From assembly GCA_947631015.1 (NCBI GenBank), contig CANRJS010000001.1:1-64000 (forward strand): DNA of 64,000 nt, given 5' to 3'. Position numbers and translations under genes: made by a program. The DNA is from an uncultured Clostridia bacterium (lineage in GTDB: Bacteria > Bacillota > Clostridia > Oscillospirales > JAAYOS01). Below are positions 41,675 to 52,550 of the stretch, piece by piece; position 1 is the first letter of the stretch; each line of letters starts with the position of its first letter. The notes under the pieces were generated by a model. That model saw nothing but the letters and a program-made list of their open reading frames with translations, did not search any database and had not been told where the DNA came from.

Positions 41675-43360
41675 TTACAAATTCTGTTTGTATCGCTCCG
41701 CCGCATCGATGAGCTCCCGCGCGCTTTTGAGGATGGTGTCCGTCACCTCTTCGCCGCCGATGATGCGTGCGAGTTCACGTTCGCGTGCCTCGCCGTCGAG
41801 ATTTGTCACCGACGTGAAGGTGCGGCCGTTCCGCTCGCGCTTCTCGACAAGGAGCTGGCAGTCCGCCATGGCCGCGAGCTGCGACAGGTGCGACACGCAG
41901 AGCACCTGTCTCGTGCGCGCTATCTTTGCGAGCTTTTCCGCGACGCGCTGCGCCGCCCGTCCGCTCACGCCGGAGTCGACCTCGTCAAATATCAGCGTGG
42001 CGACCTCGTCGCCCGACGTCAGCACCGACTTCATCGCAAGCATTATCCTCGACAGCTCGCCGCCGGACGCTATCCTGCTGAGCGGCTTCGGCTCCTCGCC
42101 CGCGTTAGCGGAGATGAGGAAGCGGACGCCGTCGCCGCCGTCCGCGCCGAGGGCGCTCTTTTCAACCTCGGTGACAAACCGCACTCCCGGCATGTCGAGC
42201 TCGCGGAGCTCGCGCTCTATCGCTTCGGCGAGGCGGACGCCCGCCTCGCGGCGCACCGCGCCGAGCTCATCCGCTATCTTCTCCGCGCGCTTCAGTGTAT
42301 CCGTTTCGCGCCGGCGGAGCTCCTCAAGCGCTTCCTCCGAAAACTCTATGTCCGAAAGCTCCGCGCGCCACTTGTCGAGGTCGGAAAGAAGCGTCTCGAC
42401 CGTGCCGCCGTAGCGGTGTTCGAGCGTGTTTATGACGTCGAGGCGGCTTTCCACCTCGTCTATTTCCTCCGGCGAGAAGTCGTACTCGCCGCGAAGTCTT
42501 CTAAGGTCGTCCGCCGCGTCCTCTGCGGCAAAGCGCAGGTCGCGGAGTTTTGAGGCAAGCTCCGCGAGGCTCGCGTCTGTCTGCGCGGCTTCGTCTATGC
42601 GGCCGGACGCGCTCTCGATAAGCGCAAGCGCGCCGGAGTAGTCCTCGCCGCCGTAGAGCTCGGAAATACTGTCGTCCACGGCGTCGGAGAGCTTCTGCGC
42701 GCTCTGGAGGATCTTCCGCCGCGCAGCAAGCTCCTCCTCCTCTCCCGCTTCGAGCTCCGCTCCCTCGACGTCCTCTATCCTCCGCCGCAGGAAGTCCGCG
42801 CGGAACGCTTTCTCCTCCTCGCCGATGGTGTGCCTTTCTATATCACGGCGTATTTCGCGCAGTTCGTTCCAGACCGCGCGGTAACTTGAAAGAAGCTCGC
42901 CGTCTCCCGCAAATCCGTCGAGGTAGCCGAGGTGCTCGTGCTCGTCGAGCAGACGTCCGCTGTCGTGCTGACCGTGTATGTTGACAAGGAGCGCACCGAG
43001 CTTCTTCAGCGCGGACACGCTCACCGGACGGTCGCCTATCCGGCAGAGGTTACGTCCGTCCGCCGACAGGCTCCTGCGTATGATGAGCGAGCCGTCCTCG
43101 TCCGGCTCGTAGCCGTTTTCCTCGAGCCATTGAAGCACGCTCGGGGCAAGCGGCGAAAAGCACGCGCTCACGGTGGCGCTCTTCTCGCCGGAGCGTATGA
43201 GGTCGCGCGGCATCCTTTCGCCGAGGACGGCGTTTATCGCGTCTATGACGATGCTCTTGCCCGCGCCGGTCTCGCCGGTGAGGACGCTGAACCGCTCCCC
43301 CGGCTCGACCTCCGCGCGCTCCACCACGGCTATGTTTTCGATTTGCAGAAAGAGAAGCAT
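41675..43360 (-). CDS. recN: DNA repair protein RecN
   Basis: 561 residues, SMC-like. Walker A GETGAGKSI (about 30-38), a long central coiled coil (about 150-370) and C-terminal signature LSRIASGGELSRIMLA with Walker B LIFDEVDSGVSG. Acts early at double-strand breaks. Last gene of the train; starts 1 bp after the argR stop. Confidence 0.96.
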   Translation of the reverse strand: MLLFLQIENIAVVERAEVEPGERFSVLTGETGAGKSIVIDAINAVLGERMPRDLIRSGEKSATVSACFSPLAPSVLQWLEENGYEPDEDGSLIIRRSLSADGRNLCRIGDRPVSVSALKKLGALLVNIHGQHDSGRLLDEHEHLGYLDGFAGDGELLSSYRAVWNELREIRRDIERHTIGEEEKAFRADFLRRRIEDVEGAELEAGEEEELAARRKILQSAQKLSDAVDDSISELYGGEDYSGALALIESASGRIDEAAQTDASLAELASKLRDLRFAAEDAADDLRRLRGEYDFSPEEIDEVESRLDVINTLEHRYGGTVETLLSDLDKWRAELSDIEFSEEALEELRRRETDTLKRAEKIADELGAVRREAGVRLAEAIERELRELDMPGVRFVTEVEKSALGADGGDGVRFLISANAGEEPKPLSRIASGGELSRIMLAMKSVLTSGDEVATLIFDEVDSGVSGRAAQRVAEKLAKIARTRQVLCVSHLSQLAAMADCQLLVEKRERNGRTFTSVTNLDGEARERELARIIGGEEVTDTILKSARELIDAAERYKQNL

Positions 43361-43361
43361 T

Positions 43362-43820
43362 TTAGTCCTCGATAAGTCCGCGCAGCTGCTCGCAGAGTTC
43401 GTGTGCCTGTTCTTCGCTTCGTACTATGATAAGCCCCGTGTCGTCACCCGCGAGAGTGCCGACTATGCCGTCGTACTTCATGCCGTCTACCGCCGCGCAC
43501 GCCGCGCTGCCGAGGGCGGCCATGGTCTTTATGACGATGATGTTTGCCGCGTAGTCCACGCCGTAGACGCTCTTGCGGAAGATGTCCTGAAGGCGCTCGT
43601 CGCCGGTGGTGCTGTCCGGCCGCTCGTCGGGAAGAACGTACCTGTATCCGAAAGAAGGGGCGGCCGCCTTCTGCAGCCGCAGCTCCTTGATGTCCCGGGA
43701 AATAGTAGCCTGAGACACGTCGTAGCCCGCTTCGCGCAGCATATCGACGAGCTCATCCTGTGTGCCGACCTTGCTTGTCCTCACAAGCTCGATTATCTTC
43801 TCGTGACGTTCCTTTTTCAC
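43362..43820 (-). CDS. argR: Arginine repressor ArgR/AhrC
   Basis: 152 residues from the GTG at 43820, which overlaps the nadK stop (GTGA) and has GGAGGTG upstream; starting 33 bp earlier would add an atypical MADTNIGGGQS. The winged helix has the SQATISRDIKEL recognition helix; the C-terminal hexamerisation and Arg-binding domain contains GTLAGDDTGLIIV. In this gene cluster it is a fixed neighbour of recN. Confidence 0.94.
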   Translation of the reverse strand: MKKERHEKIIELVRTSKVGTQDELVDMLREAGYDVSQATISRDIKELRLQKAAAPSFGYRYVLPDERPDSTTGDERLQDIFRKSVYGVDYAANIIVIKTMAALGSAACAAVDGMKYDGIVGTLAGDDTGLIIVRSEEQAHELCEQLRGLIED

Positions 43821-44668
43821 AGATTGCCCACCTCCGATATTTGTGTCTGCCAAAGTTTCGTACCAATGATACCATAAAAGTCATAATTTTGCAAGCGTAT
43901 CAATGTAGTTTTTTTGGCGTATTTGCCGATGAGCACACTGTCTCCCGCTTCGAGCCGCGTTCCCGTCCTGCCGTCTACCGTCAGGACGGCGCTCTCCGGC
44001 GCTTTCAGCCTCACTTCGGAGCAGAGCGGCAGCACGATCGGGCGCGCGTAGGGCGTGTGCGCGCAGACCGGCGTCAGGACCATGCAGTCGGAGCGCGGGT
44101 CGATTATCGGCCCTCCTGCCGAGAGCGAGTACGCCGTCGAACCGGTCGGTGTAGCGGCGATGACGCCGTCGCCGCGCAGGACGGCGACGCGGCTCCCTCC
44201 GCAGGAGATCTCCACGCGCACCATCCTTCCGAGCTCGCCTGCGGAGATGACTGCGTCGTTGAGCGCCGCCGCGCGGAAGAACTCCCCGACGCCGCGCTCC
44301 GCGCGCACGGAAAGAAGGGCGCGTTCGTCGGTGACGTAACCGCCCTCAAGCACGGTCTCGAGCGCGGCTTCGTCGGAGGCGTCGAACCCGCTCATAAAGC
44401 CTATATTTCCGAGGTTTATCCCGAGTATCGGAACGCCCGCCTCCGCCGCCGGAACGGCGGCGGAAAGTATAGTCCCGTCCCCGCCAAGCACCGCCGCCAT
44501 GTCCCGCCCTGAAAGCAGGGAAAGAAGCTCCCCGCGTCCGCAATGCGAGTCGCAGAGCGTGACGGAGACGCCGAGGCGGCGCGCGATGTGCTCCGCCTTC
44601 GCGGCGTACAGAAGGCCGGGGTCGCGCTCGGGGTTCGAGTATATCACTAGAGACTTTACCGCCGTCAC
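43817..44668 (-). CDS. nadK: NAD kinase
   Basis: 283 residues. GGDGT (with Asp) at about 62-66, LGINLGNIGFMS, and TPTGSTAYSLSAGGPI are the family motifs. It overlaps tlyA by 4 bp and argR by 4 bp, so translation is coupled. Confidence 0.95.
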   Translation of the reverse strand: MTAVKSLVIYSNPERDPGLLYAAKAEHIARRLGVSVTLCDSHCGRGELLSLLSGRDMAAVLGGDGTILSAAVPAAEAGVPILGINLGNIGFMSGFDASDEAALETVLEGGYVTDERALLSVRAERGVGEFFRAAALNDAVISAGELGRMVRVEISCGGSRVAVLRGDGVIAATPTGSTAYSLSAGGPIIDPRSDCMVLTPVCAHTPYARPIVLPLCSEVRLKAPESAVLTVDGRTGTRLEAGDSVLIGKYAKKTTLIRLQNYDFYGIIGTKLWQTQISEVGNL

Positions 44669-45477
44669 CTTTCGCTCTCCCTTCCGTCGAGCGCGGCGTG
44701 CGAGTTCTCCACGAGCCGCTTCAGGTCAAAGTCGCCGCTCTCGCCCTCGCATGAGAGGTAAGCAAGATACTCTATGTTGCCCTCCGGGCCCCGCACAGGA
44801 GAGAAGTCCAGCCCCTTCACGGCAAATCCCGCGTCATGAGCGTGAGTGAGGAACGCTTCGAGGACCTCGAGGTGCGTCTCCGGGTCGCGGACGACGCCCT
44901 TCTTTCCCACCTTCTCGCGCCCCGCCTCAAACTGGGGCTTCACGAGCGCGACGACGGTTCCTCCGTCCCGGAGGAGCGGCTTCACGCACGGAAGGACTAT
45001 CCTGAGCGAAATAAAGCTCACGTCTATCGACGCGAAGTCGAGCGGTTCGCCTATCATCTCCGGTGTGACGTTACGGATGTTCGTCCGCTCCATGACGACG
45101 ACGCGCTCGTCCGTTCGGAGCGACCAAGCGAGCTGTCCGTAGCCGACGTCTATCGCATAGACTTTCGCCGCGCCGTTTCGGAGCATACAGTCGGTAAATC
45201 CTCCGGTGGATGCGCCGACGTCCGCCGCGCGGACGCCCTCGAGCTTCACAGGGAAGACGGTGAGCGCCTTTTCGAGCTTCAACCCTCCACGGCTGACGTA
45301 AGGTATCGCGCGGCCGCGGAACTCCACCTCCGCGTCCTCCGGCACGGACGCGCCGGCCTTGTCCACGCGGACGCCCGCGACAAACACCTCGCCGCTCATT
45401 ATCGCGGCACGGGCGCGCTCGCGGCTCTGAAATATCCCGCGCTCCACGAGGAGCACGTCAAGCCTCATTTTTGCCAC
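44665..45477 (-). CDS. tlyA: TlyA-family rRNA 2'-O-methyltransferase
   Basis: 270 residues. An S4 domain (MRLDVLLVERGIFQSRERA...) precedes an FtsJ-like SAM domain with DVGASTGGFTDCML and a catalytic Lys in ALVKPQFEAGREKVGKKG. In mycobacteria TlyA methylates 16S and 23S rRNA; the target here is an inference. Overlaps dxs by 13 bp. Confidence 0.9.
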   Translation of the reverse strand: MAKMRLDVLLVERGIFQSRERARAAIMSGEVFVAGVRVDKAGASVPEDAEVEFRGRAIPYVSRGGLKLEKALTVFPVKLEGVRAADVGASTGGFTDCMLRNGAAKVYAIDVGYGQLAWSLRTDERVVVMERTNIRNVTPEMIGEPLDFASIDVSFISLRIVLPCVKPLLRDGGTVVALVKPQFEAGREKVGKKGVVRDPETHLEVLEAFLTHAHDAGFAVKGLDFSPVRGPEGNIEYLAYLSCEGESGDFDLKRLVENSHAALDGRESER

Positions 45478-47288
45478 AGCGACACCTCCGCTATGCTACC
45501 GGCGTCGATGCCGTAATATTTTTCGAGCTCCGCGACGGGGCCGTGAGTGCAGAACCTGTCGCCGAGGTCCACAAGCCTTATCCCGAACGTCTCACCGGCG
45601 CACGCCGCTTCCGCCGCGAGGCGCTGCCCGGCGGAGCCTGCCTTGACGCAGTCCTCCGCCACGACGAGCCGACCCGTCCTCCGCGCGGATGCAAACACCG
45701 TTTCGGCGTCGAGCGGCGAGAGAGTATTCAGCTTCACTATCTCGGCGGAGACGCCGCGCTTTTCGAGGATACCAGCGGCGTCAAGAGCGTTTGTGAGCAT
45801 GTGTCCGTAGGCGGCTATCGTCACGTCCGAGCCGCTTCTTATGACCTCCGCCGCACCCTCGGAAACTCCCGTGAACCTGCCCTCGTCCCCACCTCGGGGA
45901 TAGCGTATCGCGCTCGGCGCGCCGCAGGAGAGCGCGAGGCGCAGATACTCCCGCGTCTCCGCCGCGTTTGCCGGGCAGTAGATCCGGACTCCCGGAGCCT
46001 GCGCGAGAAAGCCGGGGTCGAAGATGCCGTGGTGCGTCGCGCCGTCCTCGCCGACGAGCCCCGCGCGGTCGACGGCTATGACGACCGGCAGTTTTTGCAG
46101 AGCGACGTCGTGCAGCAGCTCGTCATAGCTTCTCTGCGCGAAGGTGGAGTAGACGGCAAACACCGGCTTCATCCCCGCAGCCGAGAGCCCCGCTGCCATC
46201 GTCATGGCGTGCTCCTCCGCTATGCCCACGTCGAAGAAGCGCTCGGGAAACTCCCGCGCGAACTTCTCAAGCCCGGTCCCGCTCTCCATTGCCGCCGTGA
46301 TGGCGCATATTCTGCTGTCCTCACGCGCGAGCTCGACGAGCGCGTCCCCGAACGCGCGGGAAAAGCTCATCCCCGGCTTTGCGCTGCCCGCCGGAGCGAC
46401 GCTGTGGTACTTCTCCGGGTCGTTTTCCGCAGGGCCGTATCCCCTGCCCTTGACAGTGACCGCGTGTATCAGCACGGGTCCGTCGTAGCTCTTTGAGAGC
46501 TCGAGCAGCCGGCAGAGATTTTTCACGTCATGCCCGTCCACCGGGCCGAGGTAGGTAAATCCCATGTCCTCGAATATATTCGAGCGGATGATAAGGCTCT
46601 TGAGAAACTGCTTGACGCCGTGGACGAAGCGGTACAGGGCGTGTCCAAAGCGTCCCCTGCTGGTGGCGGCGCGGAATTTGTCCTTCGCGCGCATGTATCC
46701 CGGGCGGAGGCGCAGTCTTCCGAGCATCTGCTCCACGCCGCCGACGTTGTGCGCTATCGACATCTCGTTGTCGTTCAGTATGACTATGAGGCGCTCGCGG
46801 GACTGTCCCGCGTCGGTAAGCGCCTCATATGCAAGTCCGCCGGTGAGAGCCCCGTCGCCGAGCAGGGCGACAACGTTGCCGTCCTCCCCCTTCAGCGTCC
46901 TCGCCCGCGCCATGCCGAGCGCGGCGGACACCGAGGTGGAGGCGTGGCCGGCGCGGAACGCGTCATGCTCGCTCTCGGCGGGGTCGGGAAAGCCGGAAAG
47001 TCCTCCGAAGCGGCGGAGAGTGTCGAAACGCTCGCGGCGTCCTGTGAGGAGCTTATGCGCGTATGACTGATGGCCTACGTCGTAGACTATCTTGTCCTTC
47101 GGGGTCGAAAAAACACGATGAAGAGCAACTATGATCTCCACCGCGCCAAGACTTGAGGCGAGGTGCCCGCCCGTGCGGAGCACCCCGTCCGTTATTTCAC
47201 GGCGCAGCTCGGCACAAAGTTCGTCAAGCTGCGCCATATCCAGCTTTTTTACGTCTTCGGGGGAATGTATCCCTTCGAGGATGGACAC
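45465..47288 (-). CDS. dxs: 1-deoxy-D-xylulose-5-phosphate synthase
   Basis: First enzyme of the non-mevalonate isoprenoid pathway, TPP-dependent. 607 residues. VYDVGHQSYAHKLLTGR, GDGALTGGLAYEAL with NDNEMSI (the GDG-N metal/TPP motif), HAVTVKGRGY and DVGIAEEHAMTMAAG are seen. ispA, which uses its products, is in the same gene train. Confidence 0.96.
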   Translation of the reverse strand: MSILEGIHSPEDVKKLDMAQLDELCAELRREITDGVLRTGGHLASSLGAVEIIVALHRVFSTPKDKIVYDVGHQSYAHKLLTGRRERFDTLRRFGGLSGFPDPAESEHDAFRAGHASTSVSAALGMARARTLKGEDGNVVALLGDGALTGGLAYEALTDAGQSRERLIVILNDNEMSIAHNVGGVEQMLGRLRLRPGYMRAKDKFRAATSRGRFGHALYRFVHGVKQFLKSLIIRSNIFEDMGFTYLGPVDGHDVKNLCRLLELSKSYDGPVLIHAVTVKGRGYGPAENDPEKYHSVAPAGSAKPGMSFSRAFGDALVELAREDSRICAITAAMESGTGLEKFAREFPERFFDVGIAEEHAMTMAAGLSAAGMKPVFAVYSTFAQRSYDELLHDVALQKLPVVIAVDRAGLVGEDGATHHGIFDPGFLAQAPGVRIYCPANAAETREYLRLALSCGAPSAIRYPRGGDEGRFTGVSEGAAEVIRSGSDVTIAAYGHMLTNALDAAGILEKRGVSAEIVKLNTLSPLDAETVFASARRTGRLVVAEDCVKAGSAGQRLAAEAACAGETFGIRLVDLGDRFCTHGPVAELEKYYGIDAGSIAEVSLWQK

Positions 47289-47317: not shown

Positions 47318-47950
47318 TTATTTGTGTTTATGTCTTCCGAAGGTGAAGGGACGCTTGACAAAGTACACAACGCGCCCCGCATAGTGGACTATCATCGTGC
47401 TGTAATTTATCGCGAGGCTCTTGCCGACGGCCTTTCCGCCGACCGTGAGGGCGGAGATCATTCCGCTCATCAGGAGGCTCACGATAACATTCGGCAGGCT
47501 GAAGCTCGCGACAAGACGCGCGGCGATTATGGCGCCTGTAGCGCCGGAGATGATGCCCGAGATATCTCCCACAACATCGTTGCAGAAGGAGGACACCTTG
47601 TCCGCCGACCGCACGAGCGCGAGCGCTTCGCGCGCGCCGCTCACCTTGCGGGCGGCCATGGAGTTGAGCGGCTTTTCGTCCGCCGCAGTTACCGCAACGC
47701 CTATAACGTCAAAAACTATACCGAGCAGTATGAAAAAACCGAGCACACAGAACGCGACTATGTCTCCCACCCCGCGCAGAGCTTCGTTTGCGACAAACGA
47801 CATAGTCATGGATATCGCCATCGTCACAAAGAAAAGGGTTATTATCCAGCGCGGGTTGAAGTTTTTCTTTGATGACGGCGGCTTCTTTTTCTTGTCGGTA
47901 AGCCGCGCGTCGCTTCGTTTCGGTTCGGTGCTACTTCGGTCGCCTTCCAT
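47318..47950 (-). CDS. oapA: OapA-like membrane protein (OLE RNA partner)
   Basis: 210 residues. A charged Lys-rich N-terminus (about 1-33) precedes four hydrophobic segments (about 34-57, 62-88, 122-148 and 152-175) and a basic end (FTFGRHKHK). Its size, topology and position between dxs and a ~610 nt structured noncoding stretch are those of OapA, the protein that anchors OLE RNA in the membrane of Bacillus halodurans and relatives and that resembles CNNM/CorB magnesium-transporter helices. The name rests on context and general features, since I could not align it. Confidence 0.7.
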   Translation of the reverse strand: MEGDRSSTEPKRSDARLTDKKKKPPSSKKNFNPRWIITLFFVTMAISMTMSFVANEALRGVGDIVAFCVLGFFILLGIVFDVIGVAVTAADEKPLNSMAARKVSGAREALALVRSADKVSSFCNDVVGDISGIISGATGAIIAARLVASFSLPNVIVSLLMSGMISALTVGGKAVGKSLAINYSTMIVHYAGRVVYFVKRPFTFGRHKHK

Positions 47951-48049
47951 AAAATATCCGCTCCTTGAATCAAAAAAGTTACAGGTTCCGTCCCGCCGCA
48001 GGGCGGTGGGATACGCATAATAAAGTGGCGGCAGCGAAAGTAAATCTTA

Positions 48050-48657
48050 CGGCTTAGGTCCGGTCTGATTTCCACGGAGGGCTGCCCCGCGTCGCCGCAG
48101 GGGGCGGTTTCCCTTTGAAGCCCTCGCCCAAAACGGGTACCGGATTACCACTTAGTCCGTACTGCAATCCTCTCGCCGCCCCAGACATAAGTCTCGGACA
48201 GCCTAGGTGATTTCCACAGCAGGCAAACCGACTCTTAGCCTCTTTTGCAGGCATGATTTCTTCGAGCGATAACGAGTCCGCCGCGGCCGGCGTCGAACTC
48301 GCCTGATCCCGGATCCGCCATGCCCACTCAAGGCAGGCTACGCTGCACACAGCGCTACACGGGCCGCGAACGGCCTTTCGCACCGCAATACAGGTTTCAC
48401 CCCGCCTCGTACCGATTACCCCGGGGCGCTTTCGCGCGTCCGATAGGAGTACGGCACAACAACGGGTCTCCACGGAAACAGGGTCGGGGGATGCATGCCG
48501 TTGCAAGCCGCCCTGAAACCTTAACCCCCAGCATCCACCCCAGTCTGGGCGAAAGAAGCAAACACCAGGGACTTCATCGATGTGCCCTTCAACGGATTTT
48601 TAGGCCCGTCCTAGGAGCCGGCTGCTCTGACTAGGATACTGCGCCACCATTATGCAG
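48050..48657 (-). ncRNA. ole: OLE RNA (ornate, large, extremophilic)
   Basis: About 608 nt without a plausible ORF on either strand, with high local base-pairing and typical RNA features, between a DUF212 gene and the OapA-like gene. In Bacillus and Clostridia that carry OLE RNA it sits in exactly this order: xseA, xseB, ispA, OLE, oapA, dxs, tlyA, nadK, argR, recN. Length agrees with the ~610 nt of known OLE RNAs. A promoter at 48692-48664 predicts the 5' end near 48657; the 3' end is estimated, just before the leader of oapA. RNase P, tmRNA and SRP RNA hallmarks are absent. OLE forms a membrane complex needed under cold, short-chain alcohols and magnesium stress (known for B. halodurans). 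Confidence 0.82.
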
Positions 48658-48663
48658 TTTCTT

Positions 48664-48692
48664 ATTATAACACAAACCTCCCCTTTATTCAA
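48664..48692 (-). promoter_or_regulatory. Promoter of OLE RNA
   Basis: Leftward: TTGAAT (48692-48687), 17 bp, TATAAT (48669-48664). The -35 lies in the loop and arm of the terminator of the preceding gene. Confidence 0.65.
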
Positions 48693-48699
48693 GGGGAGG
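48677..48699 (-). terminator. Terminator of the DUF212 gene
   Basis: CCTCCCCTT-GAATA-AAGGGGAGG followed by TTTGTGTT on the minus strand; overlaps the OLE promoter. Confidence 0.6.
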
Positions 48700-48733: not shown

Positions 48734-49204
48734 TCACATAAAGAAACCCACGGCGACGCCGAGGAGCATCCCCACGAACACCTGGAGCGGCGTGTGCCCT
48801 AGCAGCTCCTTCATCTGCCGTCCGAACAGCTCGGGGGACTGCTTGTCCGCGCTCTGTATCATGACGTTGAGGACGTGGGAGTGCTCCCCCGCCGCGCGGC
48901 GGACGTTCACCGCGTCAAATATCACGATGAACGCGAATATCGCGGATATGCCGAACTCGACGCTCTGTATCCCGGCGACGCGCGCGACTGCGACCGTCGC
49001 CGCGCAGACGCAGGCGGAGTGCGAGCTGGGCATCCCGCCCGAGCCGACAAAGAACCGCCTCCACACGAATTTCTTCAGGCGGAGCGACTCCACTATTACC
49101 TTCGTCACCTGACCGATAAGCCATGCCGCGACGGCGGCGTTTATTATCCTGTTGCCGGTGAGAAAGCTCACCGCCGCTGACAAAGACAGATACGGAATAA
49201 ACAT
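48734..49204 (-). CDS. DUF212/YuiD-type phosphatase-like membrane protein (divergent PAP2)
   Basis: 156 residues with four or five helices and the divergent PAP2 motifs GSGGMPSSHSACV and KQSPELFGRQMKELLGHTPLQVFVG. The family is thought to act on lipid or prenyl pyrophosphates; its place beside ispA and dxs fits this (inference). Confidence 0.88.
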   Translation of the reverse strand: MFIPYLSLSAAVSFLTGNRIINAAVAAWLIGQVTKVIVESLRLKKFVWRRFFVGSGGMPSSHSACVCAATVAVARVAGIQSVEFGISAIFAFIVIFDAVNVRRAAGEHSHVLNVMIQSADKQSPELFGRQMKELLGHTPLQVFVGMLLGVAVGFFM

Positions 49205-49228: not shown

Positions 49229-50098
49229 CTAGAAGCTGCGCCGGGTGAGCTCTTCGGCGAGCGCCGTAAGCTCCTCCGAGCCGGGTATGTCTCTTATCGC
49301 GTCCGCCGCCCCGTCGGTGAGGGAACGGATAAGCCTTTCACATTCCTCGCGGCCGAGCTCTGAGGCAAACGTGCTCTTTCCGCGCCTCGCGTCCGCGCCG
49401 GTCGCCTTGCCGAAGCTTTCGGCACTGCCGACGACGTCGAGCAGGTCGTCCATAACCTGGAACGCGAGGCCAACGCCCTCCGCGTACTTCCGCGCCGCCG
49501 CGCGTCCGGCGGCGTCCGCGCCGCCGAGTATCGCGCCCATCTCGCAGGCGGCGGAGATGAGCGCGCCGGTCTTGAGGCGGCAGGTGGTCTCGAGCCGCTC
49601 GCGGGAGGCGCGCCGCGTCTCGTTCTCAAGGTCGAGGAGCTGCCCGCCGCACATCCCCTCGGGACCGGCGGCGCTCGCCGCGACGCGCAGAGCCTCCAGT
49701 CCCACCGACGGACATTCCGCCGCCGCGAGCGCCATCTGCTCGAAGGCAAAGGTCTGGAGCGCGTCGCCCGCGAGCACGGCGACATTCTCGCCGAACGCTA
49801 TGTGGCAGGACGGTTTTCCGCGCCGCATATCGTCGTCGTCCATGCAGGGCAGGTCGTCGTGGATAAGCGAGTAGGCGTGTATGCATTCCAGGGCGCATGC
49901 GAATTTCATCGCAAGCTCTTTGTCACCGCCGAACAGCTCGCAGAACTCGAGGAGCATCACCGCGCGGAGGCGCTTTCCACCGTTCAGAACGCTGTAACGC
50001 ATCGCCTCGTACAGGCGCGACATCTCGCCGCCCTCCGGCAGGAGCGCGTCAAGCGCCGCGCTCACCTCGCGCGCGAGCGCGTCACGGTGCGCGCTCAT
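49229..50098 (-). CDS. ispA: Polyprenyl (farnesyl/geranyl) diphosphate synthase
   Basis: 289 residues. GGKRLRAVM, first Asp-rich motif DDLPCMDDDDMRRGKPS and second QVMDDLLDVVG are clear; the length and the residues before the first motif fit a short-chain (C15) synthase. Overlaps xseB by 4 bp. Confidence 0.94.
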   Translation of the reverse strand: MSAHRDALAREVSAALDALLPEGGEMSRLYEAMRYSVLNGGKRLRAVMLLEFCELFGGDKELAMKFACALECIHAYSLIHDDLPCMDDDDMRRGKPSCHIAFGENVAVLAGDALQTFAFEQMALAAAECPSVGLEALRVAASAAGPEGMCGGQLLDLENETRRASRERLETTCRLKTGALISAACEMGAILGGADAAGRAAARKYAEGVGLAFQVMDDLLDVVGSAESFGKATGADARRGKSTFASELGREECERLIRSLTDGAADAIRDIPGSEELTALAEELTRRSF

Positions 50099-50346
50099 TC
50101 CTCCGCTCCTCCGAACGGCTCGATGACGGGTTCGCCCTCCTCGGACGTTCCGACGAGGATGCTCACCTTCGTCTCCGCTTCCTCGAGGATCTTATTGCAG
50201 TCCTTGAGGAGCGCCGCGCCCTCCTCGAAGAGCTTCAGCGACTCCTCTATCGGCGTCTCGCCGTTTTCGAGCAGAGCCGCTATCTCCTCGAGCCTTTTGA
50301 GCGACTGTTCAAAGCTCGGTTTCTTCTTTTCCGCCATATATTTCAC
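50095..50346 (-). CDS. xseB: Exodeoxyribonuclease VII small subunit
   Basis: 83 residues: KKPSFEQSLKRLEEIAALLENGETPIEESLKLFEEG in outline, the usual two-helix hairpin. Six bp after xseA. Confidence 0.95.
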   Translation of the reverse strand: MKYMAEKKKPSFEQSLKRLEEIAALLENGETPIEESLKLFEEGAALLKDCNKILEEAETKVSILVGTSEEGEPVIEPFGGAEE

Positions 50347-50352
50347 CTCGAA

Positions 50353-51615
50353 TTATAATATCTCAAGCTGCTCGGGCGGCTCGTCCGCGCCGGAGGGCTT
50401 CTGCCGCCGCTTCGGCGCACCGCCGCCGGTCACCGCCGCCTCCGCCGTACCGTCGGCAAATCTCAGCCGGAGCGCCATGCCCGGCTTCAGCGTCTTTACG
50501 CTTCGGACCGCCGTACCGTCCGGCAGGCTCGCGATGGAGTAGCCGCGTGCAAGGACGGCGAGCGGACTCAGCGCGTCGAGCGACGCCGCTATCCTTGAAA
50601 GCTTCGCCCTCTCCCGCTCGACCTTCTTCTCCGCCGCGCCGAGGAAAGCGCTCTCCGCGAGGTCGAGGCGGTGCCGCCTCTCGCGGAGCGTCCCCTCCGG
50701 GCCGGAGAATACCGGCTTCTTCGCGAGCGCGTCGAGGCGCATCCGCGCGAGCCGTATGTGCCTGTCGGCAAGCGCGCGGAGGCGCGCGCCGGAGCCGTCA
50801 AGCTGTATTCTCACCTCGTCCGCGTCCGGCACGGCGAGCTCCGCCGCGTTCGACGGCGTCGCCGCGCGGAGGTCCGCCACCGAGTCGGATATGGTGAAGT
50901 CCGGCTCGTGGCCTACGGCGCTTATGACAGGTATCTTCGAGCGGAATATGGCGTCCGCCACCCGCTCGTCGTTGAACGCCCACAGGTCCTCTATCGAACC
51001 GCCGCCGCGCCCCGTGATGATGAGGTCGCAGGGGATGTGCTTATTTACATAGTCGATGCCGGAGGCTATCTCCGCCGGAGCTTCCTCGCCCTGTACGCGC
51101 GTCGGGACTATTACGACCTCCGCCACCGGCCAGCGTCCGCCGAGTATGCGGAGCATGTCCCGCACGGCCGCGCCGGCGGGCGAGGTGATAAGGCAGATCT
51201 TCGCGGGATACCTCGGTATCGGCTTCTTGTGCGCCTCGTCAAAATAGCCCTTTTTCTCAAGCTTCTGCTTTAACTGTTCGTAGGCGACGTAGAGCGCGCC
51301 CACGCCGTCCGGTATCATCTCAGAGGCGTAGAGCTGGTACGTGCCGTCCCGCGGGTAAACCGCGACGCGTCCGCGTATGATGACTTTCATCCCGCTCTCC
51401 GGCTTGAAGCGGAGCTTTGAAGCTTCGCCACGGAACATGACGCATTTCAGCGTGCTTTCCGCGTCCTTGAGGGTGAAGTAGTGGTGGCCGGAGGGGTAGG
51501 TCTTGTAGTTTGAGAGCTCGCCGGAGACATAGACGTCCGCGAGGGCGCGGTCGCTCTCGACGAGCATCTTGACGTGATACGTTATCTCCGAGACGGTGTA
51601 GACCGTGCGGTTCAT
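50353..51615 (-). CDS. xseA: Exodeoxyribonuclease VII large subunit
   Basis: 420 residues. N-terminal OB-fold (VYVSGELSNYKTYPSGHHYFTLKD), catalytic core with ICLITSPAGAAVRDML, RGGGSIEDLWAFNDE and VISAVGHEPDFTISDSVADLRAATPSNAAEL. A coiled coil and RGYSI segment follow. The C-terminus overlaps nothing; the start overlaps the TsaD-like stop by 4 bp. Confidence 0.96.
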   Translation of the reverse strand: MNRTVYTVSEITYHVKMLVESDRALADVYVSGELSNYKTYPSGHHYFTLKDAESTLKCVMFRGEASKLRFKPESGMKVIIRGRVAVYPRDGTYQLYASEMIPDGVGALYVAYEQLKQKLEKKGYFDEAHKKPIPRYPAKICLITSPAGAAVRDMLRILGGRWPVAEVVIVPTRVQGEEAPAEIASGIDYVNKHIPCDLIITGRGGGSIEDLWAFNDERVADAIFRSKIPVISAVGHEPDFTISDSVADLRAATPSNAAELAVPDADEVRIQLDGSGARLRALADRHIRLARMRLDALAKKPVFSGPEGTLRERRHRLDLAESAFLGAAEKKVERERAKLSRIAASLDALSPLAVLARGYSIASLPDGTAVRSVKTLKPGMALRLRFADGTAEAAVTGGGAPKRRQKPSGADEPPEQLEIL

Positions 51616-52550
51616 CCTCTCCCCTCCCTCACGAACAGTTTCTCCGCGAGCAGCGCGACGCCGCAGGCGTTGTCGCTTGAAAAGGACGGCTCCGCGAAGT
51701 GCGCGCCGAACCTCTCCTCAAACCGTGTGCGTATTATACCGTTTGACATGACGCCTCCGGCGCAGAGAAGTTCGAGCCCGGGGCGCTCCTCGAGGGCGCG
51801 CGCCGCCGCGCGCTCGAGCACCGCAGACACGCTCTCTATGACGAACCGCGCTATATGCTCCGGCGGTCTCACGCCTATCAGCTCGCGGAACTTGTTTTCG
51901 ATTCCGGAGAGCGAGAAGTCCCCGCCGGAGGTTTTCGGCAGGAACGGCCTTACCGGCTCGCTTTCGAGGGCGAGGCGTTCAAGTTCCGGCCCCGCCGGGA
52001 ACCCGAGCCCGAGCGCTACTCCGCAGCGGTCTATCACCTGTCCCGCGGCGAGGTCTGCCGTGCCGCCGACGCGGCGGCAGACCGGCAGTCCGTCCTCTCC
52101 GGGCGTGACATAAAGAAGCTCGGTCGTGCCGCCCGAGACGTGGTACGCGAGGAACTCACGGTCGAGCAGGTCGAATCTCCCCGCCGACCACGCGGCGGCG
52201 GCGATGTGTCCCTGCTGGTGCGACACCGCGTAGAACGGTACGCCCGCAGCCGCCGCGAGCGTCCTCCCCTGTCCCTCGCCCACGAGAAAGCAGGGCATGT
52301 ACGAACCCTCGACGGCGCGCGGACGCGTGGACGCCGCGACGGCGGCTATACCGCCGCCGATACATGAAAACAGCGCCTCCGCAAGCTCGGGGAGGCGTTT
52401 TGTGTGTGCGAATACAGCGTCGCTCTGCCGAAGGCCGAGCTCGCCCGGCTTTACGTCGAGAAGGCGTTTCTTTCCCACGACCTCGCCGCCGCAGACGGCG
52501 GCTGTTGAGGTCGTGTAGTTCGAGGTATCAAAGCCGAGAAAGAGGCTCAC
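51612..52550 (-). CDS. TsaD/Kae1-family protein (divergent paralogue)
   Basis: 312 residues of the ASKHA-type M22 family. FLGFDTSNYTTSTAAV replaces the usual GIETSCDET, and the metal site is HQQGH rather than HxEGH, both marks of a clostridial paralogue of TsaD rather than TsaD itself. VSGGTTELLYV and CAGGVMSN are the phosphate loops. It may bind ATP; t6A synthesis is doubtful. Overlaps nusB by 4 bp. Confidence 0.8.
   Translation of the reverse strand: MSLFLGFDTSNYTTSTAAVCGGEVVGKKRLLDVKPGELGLRQSDAVFAHTKRLPELAEALFSCIGGGIAAVAASTRPRAVEGSYMPCFLVGEGQGRTLAAAAGVPFYAVSHQQGHIAAAAWSAGRFDLLDREFLAYHVSGGTTELLYVTPGEDGLPVCRRVGGTADLAAGQVIDRCGVALGLGFPAGPELERLALESEPVRPFLPKTSGGDFSLSGIENKFRELIGVRPPEHIARFVIESVSAVLERAAARALEERPGLELLCAGGVMSNGIIRTRFEERFGAHFAEPSFSSDNACGVALLAEKLFVREGRG

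Follow-up and report, generated by a model that had tools for sequence, protein, structure and literature searches.

The window analysed here is a stretch of 64,000 nucleotides (nt) from contig CANRJS010000001.1 of an uncultured Clostridia bacterium in the order Oscillospirales, and it carries a gene for the large structured RNA OLE (ole) followed directly by oapA. Searching the whole window against Rfam with cmscan returned OLE RNA (RF01071) as the sole hit above its gathering score, at positions 48009-48663 of the minus strand (655 nt), the strand on which all features described below lie. The match scored 435.4 bits (E-value 1.6e-124) against a gathering score of 50 bits and ran end to end, covering model positions 1-616 of 616. 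An earlier note on this DNA, made from the letters alone, had placed an OLE RNA at 48050-48657; the covariance model confirms the identity of the RNA, while the 3' end had been set about 40 nt short. The window RNA has the full set of helices; for 154 Rfam pairs both bases exist in it, and 140 of these form standard pairs. The oapA reading frame (47318-47950) begins 58 nt past the OLE 3' end and encodes a 210-amino-acid membrane protein that is predicted to fold like CNNM and has a DxxxD motif formed by D125 and D129. Its assignment as OapA, also made in the earlier note, is upheld by the occurrence of homologues in exactly those genomes that have OLE, together with the structural model and its fold match.

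The RNA structure was scored on 29 OLE RNAs of the same order, the window RNA among them, which were aligned by MAFFT without being fitted to the structure. Scoring covered 153 pairs: the 140 standard pairs of the window RNA and 13 further pairs of helix P3 that we added. Across 4313 alignment cells, 89.4% pair, compared to 72.7% in shuffles, which leave the relatedness among the 29 RNAs in place, and to at best 46.6% with slid partners, a control over which the structure is favoured because the window's own pairs were chosen for scoring. Double-sided changes occur in 108 of the 153 pairs, and the covariation score is 0.512 versus 0.205. Pairing is weak in the outer parts of P9 (52-55% of cells, helices 12-14). 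Thus, the window holds a full-length, well-preserved OLE gene with a covarying structure that is shared across the clade. One local peculiarity is a hairpin in the P12 region (48126-48139, OLE nt 525-538), which is 13-14 nt long in the window genus only, against a median of 24 and up to 129 in relatives.

The published contacts between the two RNAs of an OLE dimer are the A-rich P4 loop, the P5.1/P6.1 loops and the palindromic P9 loop (PMC12286853, PMC12265935). The window RNA contains all of them: CCUAAAAAUCC in P4, GCCCA in P5.1, GGCAU in P6.1 and GGCC in P9. For comparison we used 90 OLE RNAs, comprising the 29 order loci and 65 near-full-length sequences out of 74 nhmmer matches, minus 4 duplicates; conserved unpaired blocks are present across this set. 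The P4 hairpin (48590-48610), a dimer contact in published cryo-electron microscopy, is 21 nt in 90/90 RNAs, and the GGCC palindrome of the P9 kissing loop (48285-48288) is found in 83/90. By eye, the non-GGCC loops of L027, L029 and L104 have the self-complementary cores AGCT, GTAC and GCGC, which fits the need for a symmetric dimer contact; L023 and L026 have no clear self-complementary core, and the loop is missing from L024 and L028. The 5' strand of the kink-turn (k-turn) in J4a/5 (48569-48580), the published OapC site, keeps a loose C-NNN-GA in all 90 RNAs, and a search for its loss in loci from genomes without an OapC hit (L019, L020, L021, L024 and L028) found none. Model mapping and length comparison place the P12.2/P13 hairpin, whose GGCGAC loop is the published OapB site, at 48076-48125.

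Helix P3 has been proposed to span the membrane, with P3 and P3.1 typically totalling 12 base pairs (bp) (PMC12265935). In the window, the 5' strand of P3/P3.1 lies at 48615-48628 and the 3' strand, assigned by pairing, covariation and length, at 48221-48234; the 13 pairs between them all have double-sided changes. After exclusion of L106, in which the P3 anchors failed, the 5' strand was 21 nt in 81 of 89 RNAs, and 12-14 pairs were predicted in 77 of the 89. Native strands formed a mean of 12.7 bp at -15.3 kcal/mol, whereas partners swapped between species formed 9.2 bp at -8.6 kcal/mol. Mean pairwise identity is 0.55 for the 5' strand and 0.53 for the 3' strand, with coefficients of variation (CV) in length of 0.012 and 0.036, respectively. 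Fixed length combined with variable sequence is as expected of an RNA helix that spans a membrane. Constant length was not accepted as proof that P3 does so, however, since it is unspecific: P12.2/P13 (CV 0.011) and P6 (0.013) are constrained about equally, and the value for P5 is 0.004.

The ole-oapA cassette in the isoprenoid gene row

Pfam and NCBIfam matches give the gene row as xseA-xseB-ispA-DUF212-ole-oapA-dxs-tlyA-nadK-argR-recN, in agreement from ispA onward with the order described in the earlier note, although the last step is recognized only as RecF/RecN/SMC. Upstream of ole are xseA (50353-51615, TIGR00237), xseB (50095-50346, TIGR01280), an ispA-type farnesyl diphosphate synthase gene (49229-50098, NF045485, 292 bits) and a DUF212 gene of the divergent PAP2 family (48734-49204, PF02681, E-value 3.3e-42). 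Downstream of oapA follow dxs (45465-47288, TIGR00204, 660 bits), tlyA (44665-45477, TIGR00478), nadK (43817-44668, PF20143 and PF01513), argR (43362-43853, PF02863 and PF01316) and a gene at 41675-43360 (PF02463) that we take from context to be recN. Farther upstream of xseA are a TsaD-like gene, nusB, asp23 and spoIIIAH. The TsaD-like gene, beside xseA at 51612-52550, scores 104.8 bits against the TsaD equivalog cut-off of 296.1 and is a diverged paralogue.

The DUF212 gene had been suggested to add a variant to the known OLE context. In a comparison sample of 59 genomes of the same order, the gene occurs in 16 of the 29 OLE loci and in one contig-edge case, G004. We rejected G004 as an OLE-lacking member of the genus, its DUF212 contig ending 128 nt into OLE. 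In 10 of the 11 OLE-lacking genomes with DUF212, the gene runs into dxs within about 150 nt; in the eleventh, G031, the stretch read after DUF212 contains no dxs. DUF212 is therefore part of the isoprenoid row of this order, and its adjacency to dxs without OLE rules it out as a new OLE context. It is rarer in a named collection of 80 OapA loci, where the window's own DUF212 as query found 5, of which 4 come from the same genus or family as the window; only 62 of the 80 loci extend at least 1.7 kb upstream of oapA, and 30 show ispA. Thus, OLE-oapA is a cassette within the isoprenoid gene row.

OLE appears to have a promoter of its own, as the earlier note had also proposed. A predicted sigma-A-type site, TTGAAT-17-TATAAT (48664-48692), matches 10 of 12 consensus bases, has a TG before the -10 hexamer and lies 1-29 nt 5' of the modelled RNA start. 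A scan of 1.1 kb gave 2 promoter-like sites, where shuffled sequence gave 0.4. The site is also present in the genus relatives L016, L014, L011 and L146, and 17 of the 29 order loci have at least 10/12 promoter bases within 150 nt around the ole start, a count made without a shuffle control. The -35 hexamer sits inside a 9-bp terminator-like hairpin (48677-48699) behind ispA-DUF212 that is followed by TTTGTGTT and goes unmentioned in the earlier note. Terminator-like stems occur at this place in 5/5 genus members: the same hairpin in L001, L016, L014 and L146, and in L011 a different, 10-bp stem (AAAACCGCCC/GGGCGGTTTT) with TTGAAA in its loop. This arrangement suggests that ispA-DUF212 transcripts likely end where OLE transcription begins. 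Overlap of hairpin and promoter was seen by eye in none of the other order loci save for L013, from another family, where a CCCC-TTGATAT-GGGG dyad that lacks a T tract went unlisted by a scan for stems of at least 6. A palindromic operator in place of a terminator was also considered.

Co-occurrence with OapA, partner genes and near exclusion of MpfA

OLE and OapA calls were identical in 59/59 genomes of the comparison sample (both present in 29, both absent in 30). Counting the contig-edge genome G004, 30 genomes are OLE+ and 29 are OLE-. As a proxy for the magnesium exporter MpfA we used PF03471 (CorC_HlyC) over its cut-off, which was reached in 3 of 30 OLE+ genomes (G042, G048 and G053) compared to 26 of 29 OLE- genomes. 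Fisher's test on this exclusion gives p = 2.8e-10, a value that overstates it because the genomes are related. The three OLE- genomes without MpfA, G013, G033 and G052, are 55%, 77% and 95% complete. A swap is visible inside the family of the window genome: OLE occurs in genera g1 and g5, and MpfA without OLE in g2, g3 and g4. The window genome itself gave no PF03471 match at E-values up to 0.001. Thus, OLE-oapA and MpfA nearly exclude each other in this order, which repeats at a finer scale an anticorrelation already published (PMC11332333).

The window genome is 1.89 Mb and 98% complete. The earlier note called its organism a spore former, and the genome encodes SpoIVA and SpoIIIAH. It also encodes bS21 and the two further OLE partners. 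OapB, at locus C19, has OLE-associated protein B (7k9b, E-value 3.3e-6) as its sole PDB match, and OapC/YbxF, at locus C5, matches 4lck (8e-14). The neighbours are presumably map and infA for OapB, and rpoC and rpsL for OapC/YbxF. OapB was found in 28/30 OLE+ and 17/29 OLE- genomes, and OapC (E-values up to 1e-8) in 22/30 and 6/29, respectively; G008, which is 47% complete, accounts for one OLE+ miss in both counts.

In the named collection, nhmmer found OLE upstream of oapA in 74 of the 80 loci. Two more, L105 and L109, contain the OLE 3' end with sub-gathering cmscan scores of 28 and 32 bits, and the sequence of L120 begins about 40 nt ahead of the oapA match. L046, L116 and L119 have oapA-dxs and show no OLE at an E-value of 0.01 within about 1130, 568 and 6401 nt upstream. 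In L078, ole and oapA are about 2.5 kb apart. Contigs start or stop inside OLE in L053, L057, L076, L083, L087, L090, L095, L105, L109 and L146, a pattern that may lower the counts of OLE and adjacent genes in metagenome assemblies of this kind.

In G010 and G034, which represent two genera within a single family, oapA stays with dxs and ole is on another contig, which indicates that OLE can probably act in trans; the ole neighbours there are, we assume, mfd and a NERD-like gene. A similar unlinking in G037 was rejected. Its two contigs have group II intron matches just after ole (L156:4313-4516) and just before oapA (L155:4782-4866), and an intron has probably inserted in the spacer; the reading frame after ole is presumably reverse-transcriptase-like. 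Additionally, one genome with a linked ole-oapA has a second OapA copy (L157, G014:C94:6614-7165), with neighbours that we take to be dxs, nadK and argR.

OapA and the proposed OLE particle

OapA had no Pfam match above curated cut-off, the best being CNNM (PF01595) at an E-value of 0.0037 and 17.4 bits against 28.4, and no NCBIfam match. Its predicted model has four long helices and a shorter fifth, and matches the CNNM transmembrane fold (7m1t and 7cff) over residues 61-199. Aligned with MtCorB (7m1t) and TpCorC (7cff), OapA differs at three positions: Glu111, a Mg2+ ligand in MtCorB, is Lys173, Pro114 is Gly176 and Ser25 is Asp81. The lysine is invariant, and no acidic residue occurs within -7 to +8 of it in any of 102 OapA proteins; C-x-D-x-x-[GA]-D, which includes D125 and D129 in the window OapA, is present in all 102. 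Where 19 of 20 fetched MpfA-type loci read GExxPK, the window OapA reads GKAVGK, and the helix-breaking proline is replaced by glycine in 24 of 26 OapA proteins. Sixteen of the 20 loci entered the MpfA profile, from which we left out L161 (close to L162), L163 and L169 (longest reading frame not in the MpfA frame) and L165 (divergent). K173 thus takes the place of a liganding glutamate, and the aspartates D81 and D125/D129 fall on or close to further ligand positions, which makes it probable that OapA differs from an ordinary Mg2+ transporter of the CNNM kind. The missing proline and the DxxxD motif are stated in the main text of PMC11332333; in that text 'lysine', 'coordinat' and 'Glu111' occur 0 times, and Fig. 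S5 is cited for the motif difference between OapA and CNNM. We do not claim the Glu-to-Lys change as unpublished.

We consider it likely, with a probability of roughly 0.8, that the complete OLE gene and oapA, together with OapB, OapC and bS21, yield a membrane ribonucleoprotein that replaces the MpfA exporter. OLE would be transcribed from its own promoter behind the terminator and fold into domain 1 and domain 2, and two copies may pair through the P4, P5.1/P6.1 and P9 loops. OapA would hold the RNA at the membrane, with OapC bound to the k-turn and OapB to P13. We infer these steps from published work on OLE in Halalkalibacterium halodurans (H. halodurans) and Clostridium. The five products are predicted to assemble into the OLE particle, which would assume the role of MpfA, an exporter not found in this genome. 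As a last step, OapA may be a plugged or differently gated relative of CNNM whose state is set by the OLE RNA.

Several observations weigh against this proposal. OLE and MpfA coexist in three genomes, two further OLE+ genomes (G003 and G011) have sub-cut-off PF03471 matches, and G052, 95% complete, lacks both systems. OapB and OapC are not strict parts of the particle, given the OLE- genomes that have them and the 8 of 30 OLE+ genomes without a clear OapC. The OapA model has a mean predicted local distance difference test score of just 74.8, Foldseek gave nothing below an E-value of 0.001 (best 5e-3), and a sequence profile found no PDB chain at E-values up to 1. Midway along OapA, the alignment register (Ser71 versus D129) is uncertain by about one residue, as MAFFT modes differ there. 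The CorC_HlyC protein of L165 (genome G056) reads GYLLPK for GExxPK and has also lost the Mg2+ ligand, so loss of the glutamate is not confined to OapA. Finally, published work views OapA as a putative metal-ion transporter (PMC12265935, PMC11332333), which runs counter to the last step.

That published proposal, in which OapA is a true CNNM-type transporter of Mg2+ or other divalent ions and OLE is a regulatory domain replacing the CBS and CorC_HlyC domains, is a real possibility, although we rate it below even. It draws on the fold of the model, the near exclusion with MpfA and the Mg2+ sensitivity of OLE and OapA mutants (PMC11332333), but has to accommodate an invariant lysine at the Glu111 position with no acid nearby, a GExxPK motif present in 19 of 20 MpfA-type loci and absent here, and the exchange of proline for glycine. 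Furthermore, the human CNNM2 mutation E357K, a charge reversal at the same glutamate, is among disease mutations (PMC8242095).

A more specific and rather unlikely version of the RNA-set OapA is a switch in which K173 pairs with D81 and D129/D125 instead of Mg2+ and closes the pore, OLE opens it or holds it shut and P3 acts as a coupling strut. In the published PM1 mutant, two aspartates, read here as those of DxxxD, are changed to alanine; it fares worse than loss of OapA, and the excess harm needs a working OLE particle. If the switch existed, removal of the aspartates would unplug the pore, which would explain this result.

Less probable still, OLE may be a ribozyme that OapA, OapB and OapC merely hold and fold. 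This proposal of the Breaker laboratory (PMC11332333) suits the size of OLE and the conserved unpaired blocks in the 90 RNAs, but no feature of the window points to a substrate. It is very improbable that OLE is mainly a long cis-acting leader controlling oapA and dxs expression: a leader would suit the place of OLE ahead of oapA in 74 of the 80 named loci, with OLE ends in 2 more, yet ole and oapA lie on separate contigs in G010 and G034, and a leader would hardly seem to require an RNA of such size and covarying structure. That the window copy is a decaying relic can practically be dismissed, as a P12-region hairpin that is short in this genus (14 nt, median 24) and 14 non-standard pairs among 154 stand against a score of 435 bits, intact published contact loops and retention of the RNA and its partner genes in the genus members read.

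Returning to the proposed ribonucleoprotein, the large RNA OLE is known from thousands of bacteria, and its biochemical role has stayed unsettled for nearly 20 years; whether OapA transports metal ions is central to that question. The window adds one locus to about 2,800 published (PMC11332333); the OLE-OapA system is already known, and novelty of context is not supported. The value of the locus lies in comparison. Its family, where OLE-oapA and MpfA substitute for one another from genus to genus, offers a clean background for a swap, and a lysine at a Mg2+ ligand position turns the transporter question into a point-mutation test.

Compared with CNNM, CorB and MpfA proteins, the window OapA is without CBS and CorC_HlyC domains. 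At the level of overall features, it shares with the OapA of H. halodurans the long helices of the model, the DxxxD motif and adjacency to ole. The RNA has in common with RF01071 members from H. halodurans, C. acetobutylicum and others the whole model, the contact loops, the k-turn C, the GGCGAC loop of P13 and the downstream oapA. It differs from that set in a P7 of 66 nt and a P8 of 51 nt, both longer than the respective medians of 59 and 44, and in a promoter overlapped by a terminator-like hairpin. A small genome, 1.89 Mb here, is a likeness to the reduced gut genomes that carry OLE variants 1 and 2 (PMC11332333), where the bit scale rests on a model other than the one behind the Rfam score of 435. 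Unlike those variants, the window RNA retains P7, P8 and P13, and its genome retains OapB and OapC.
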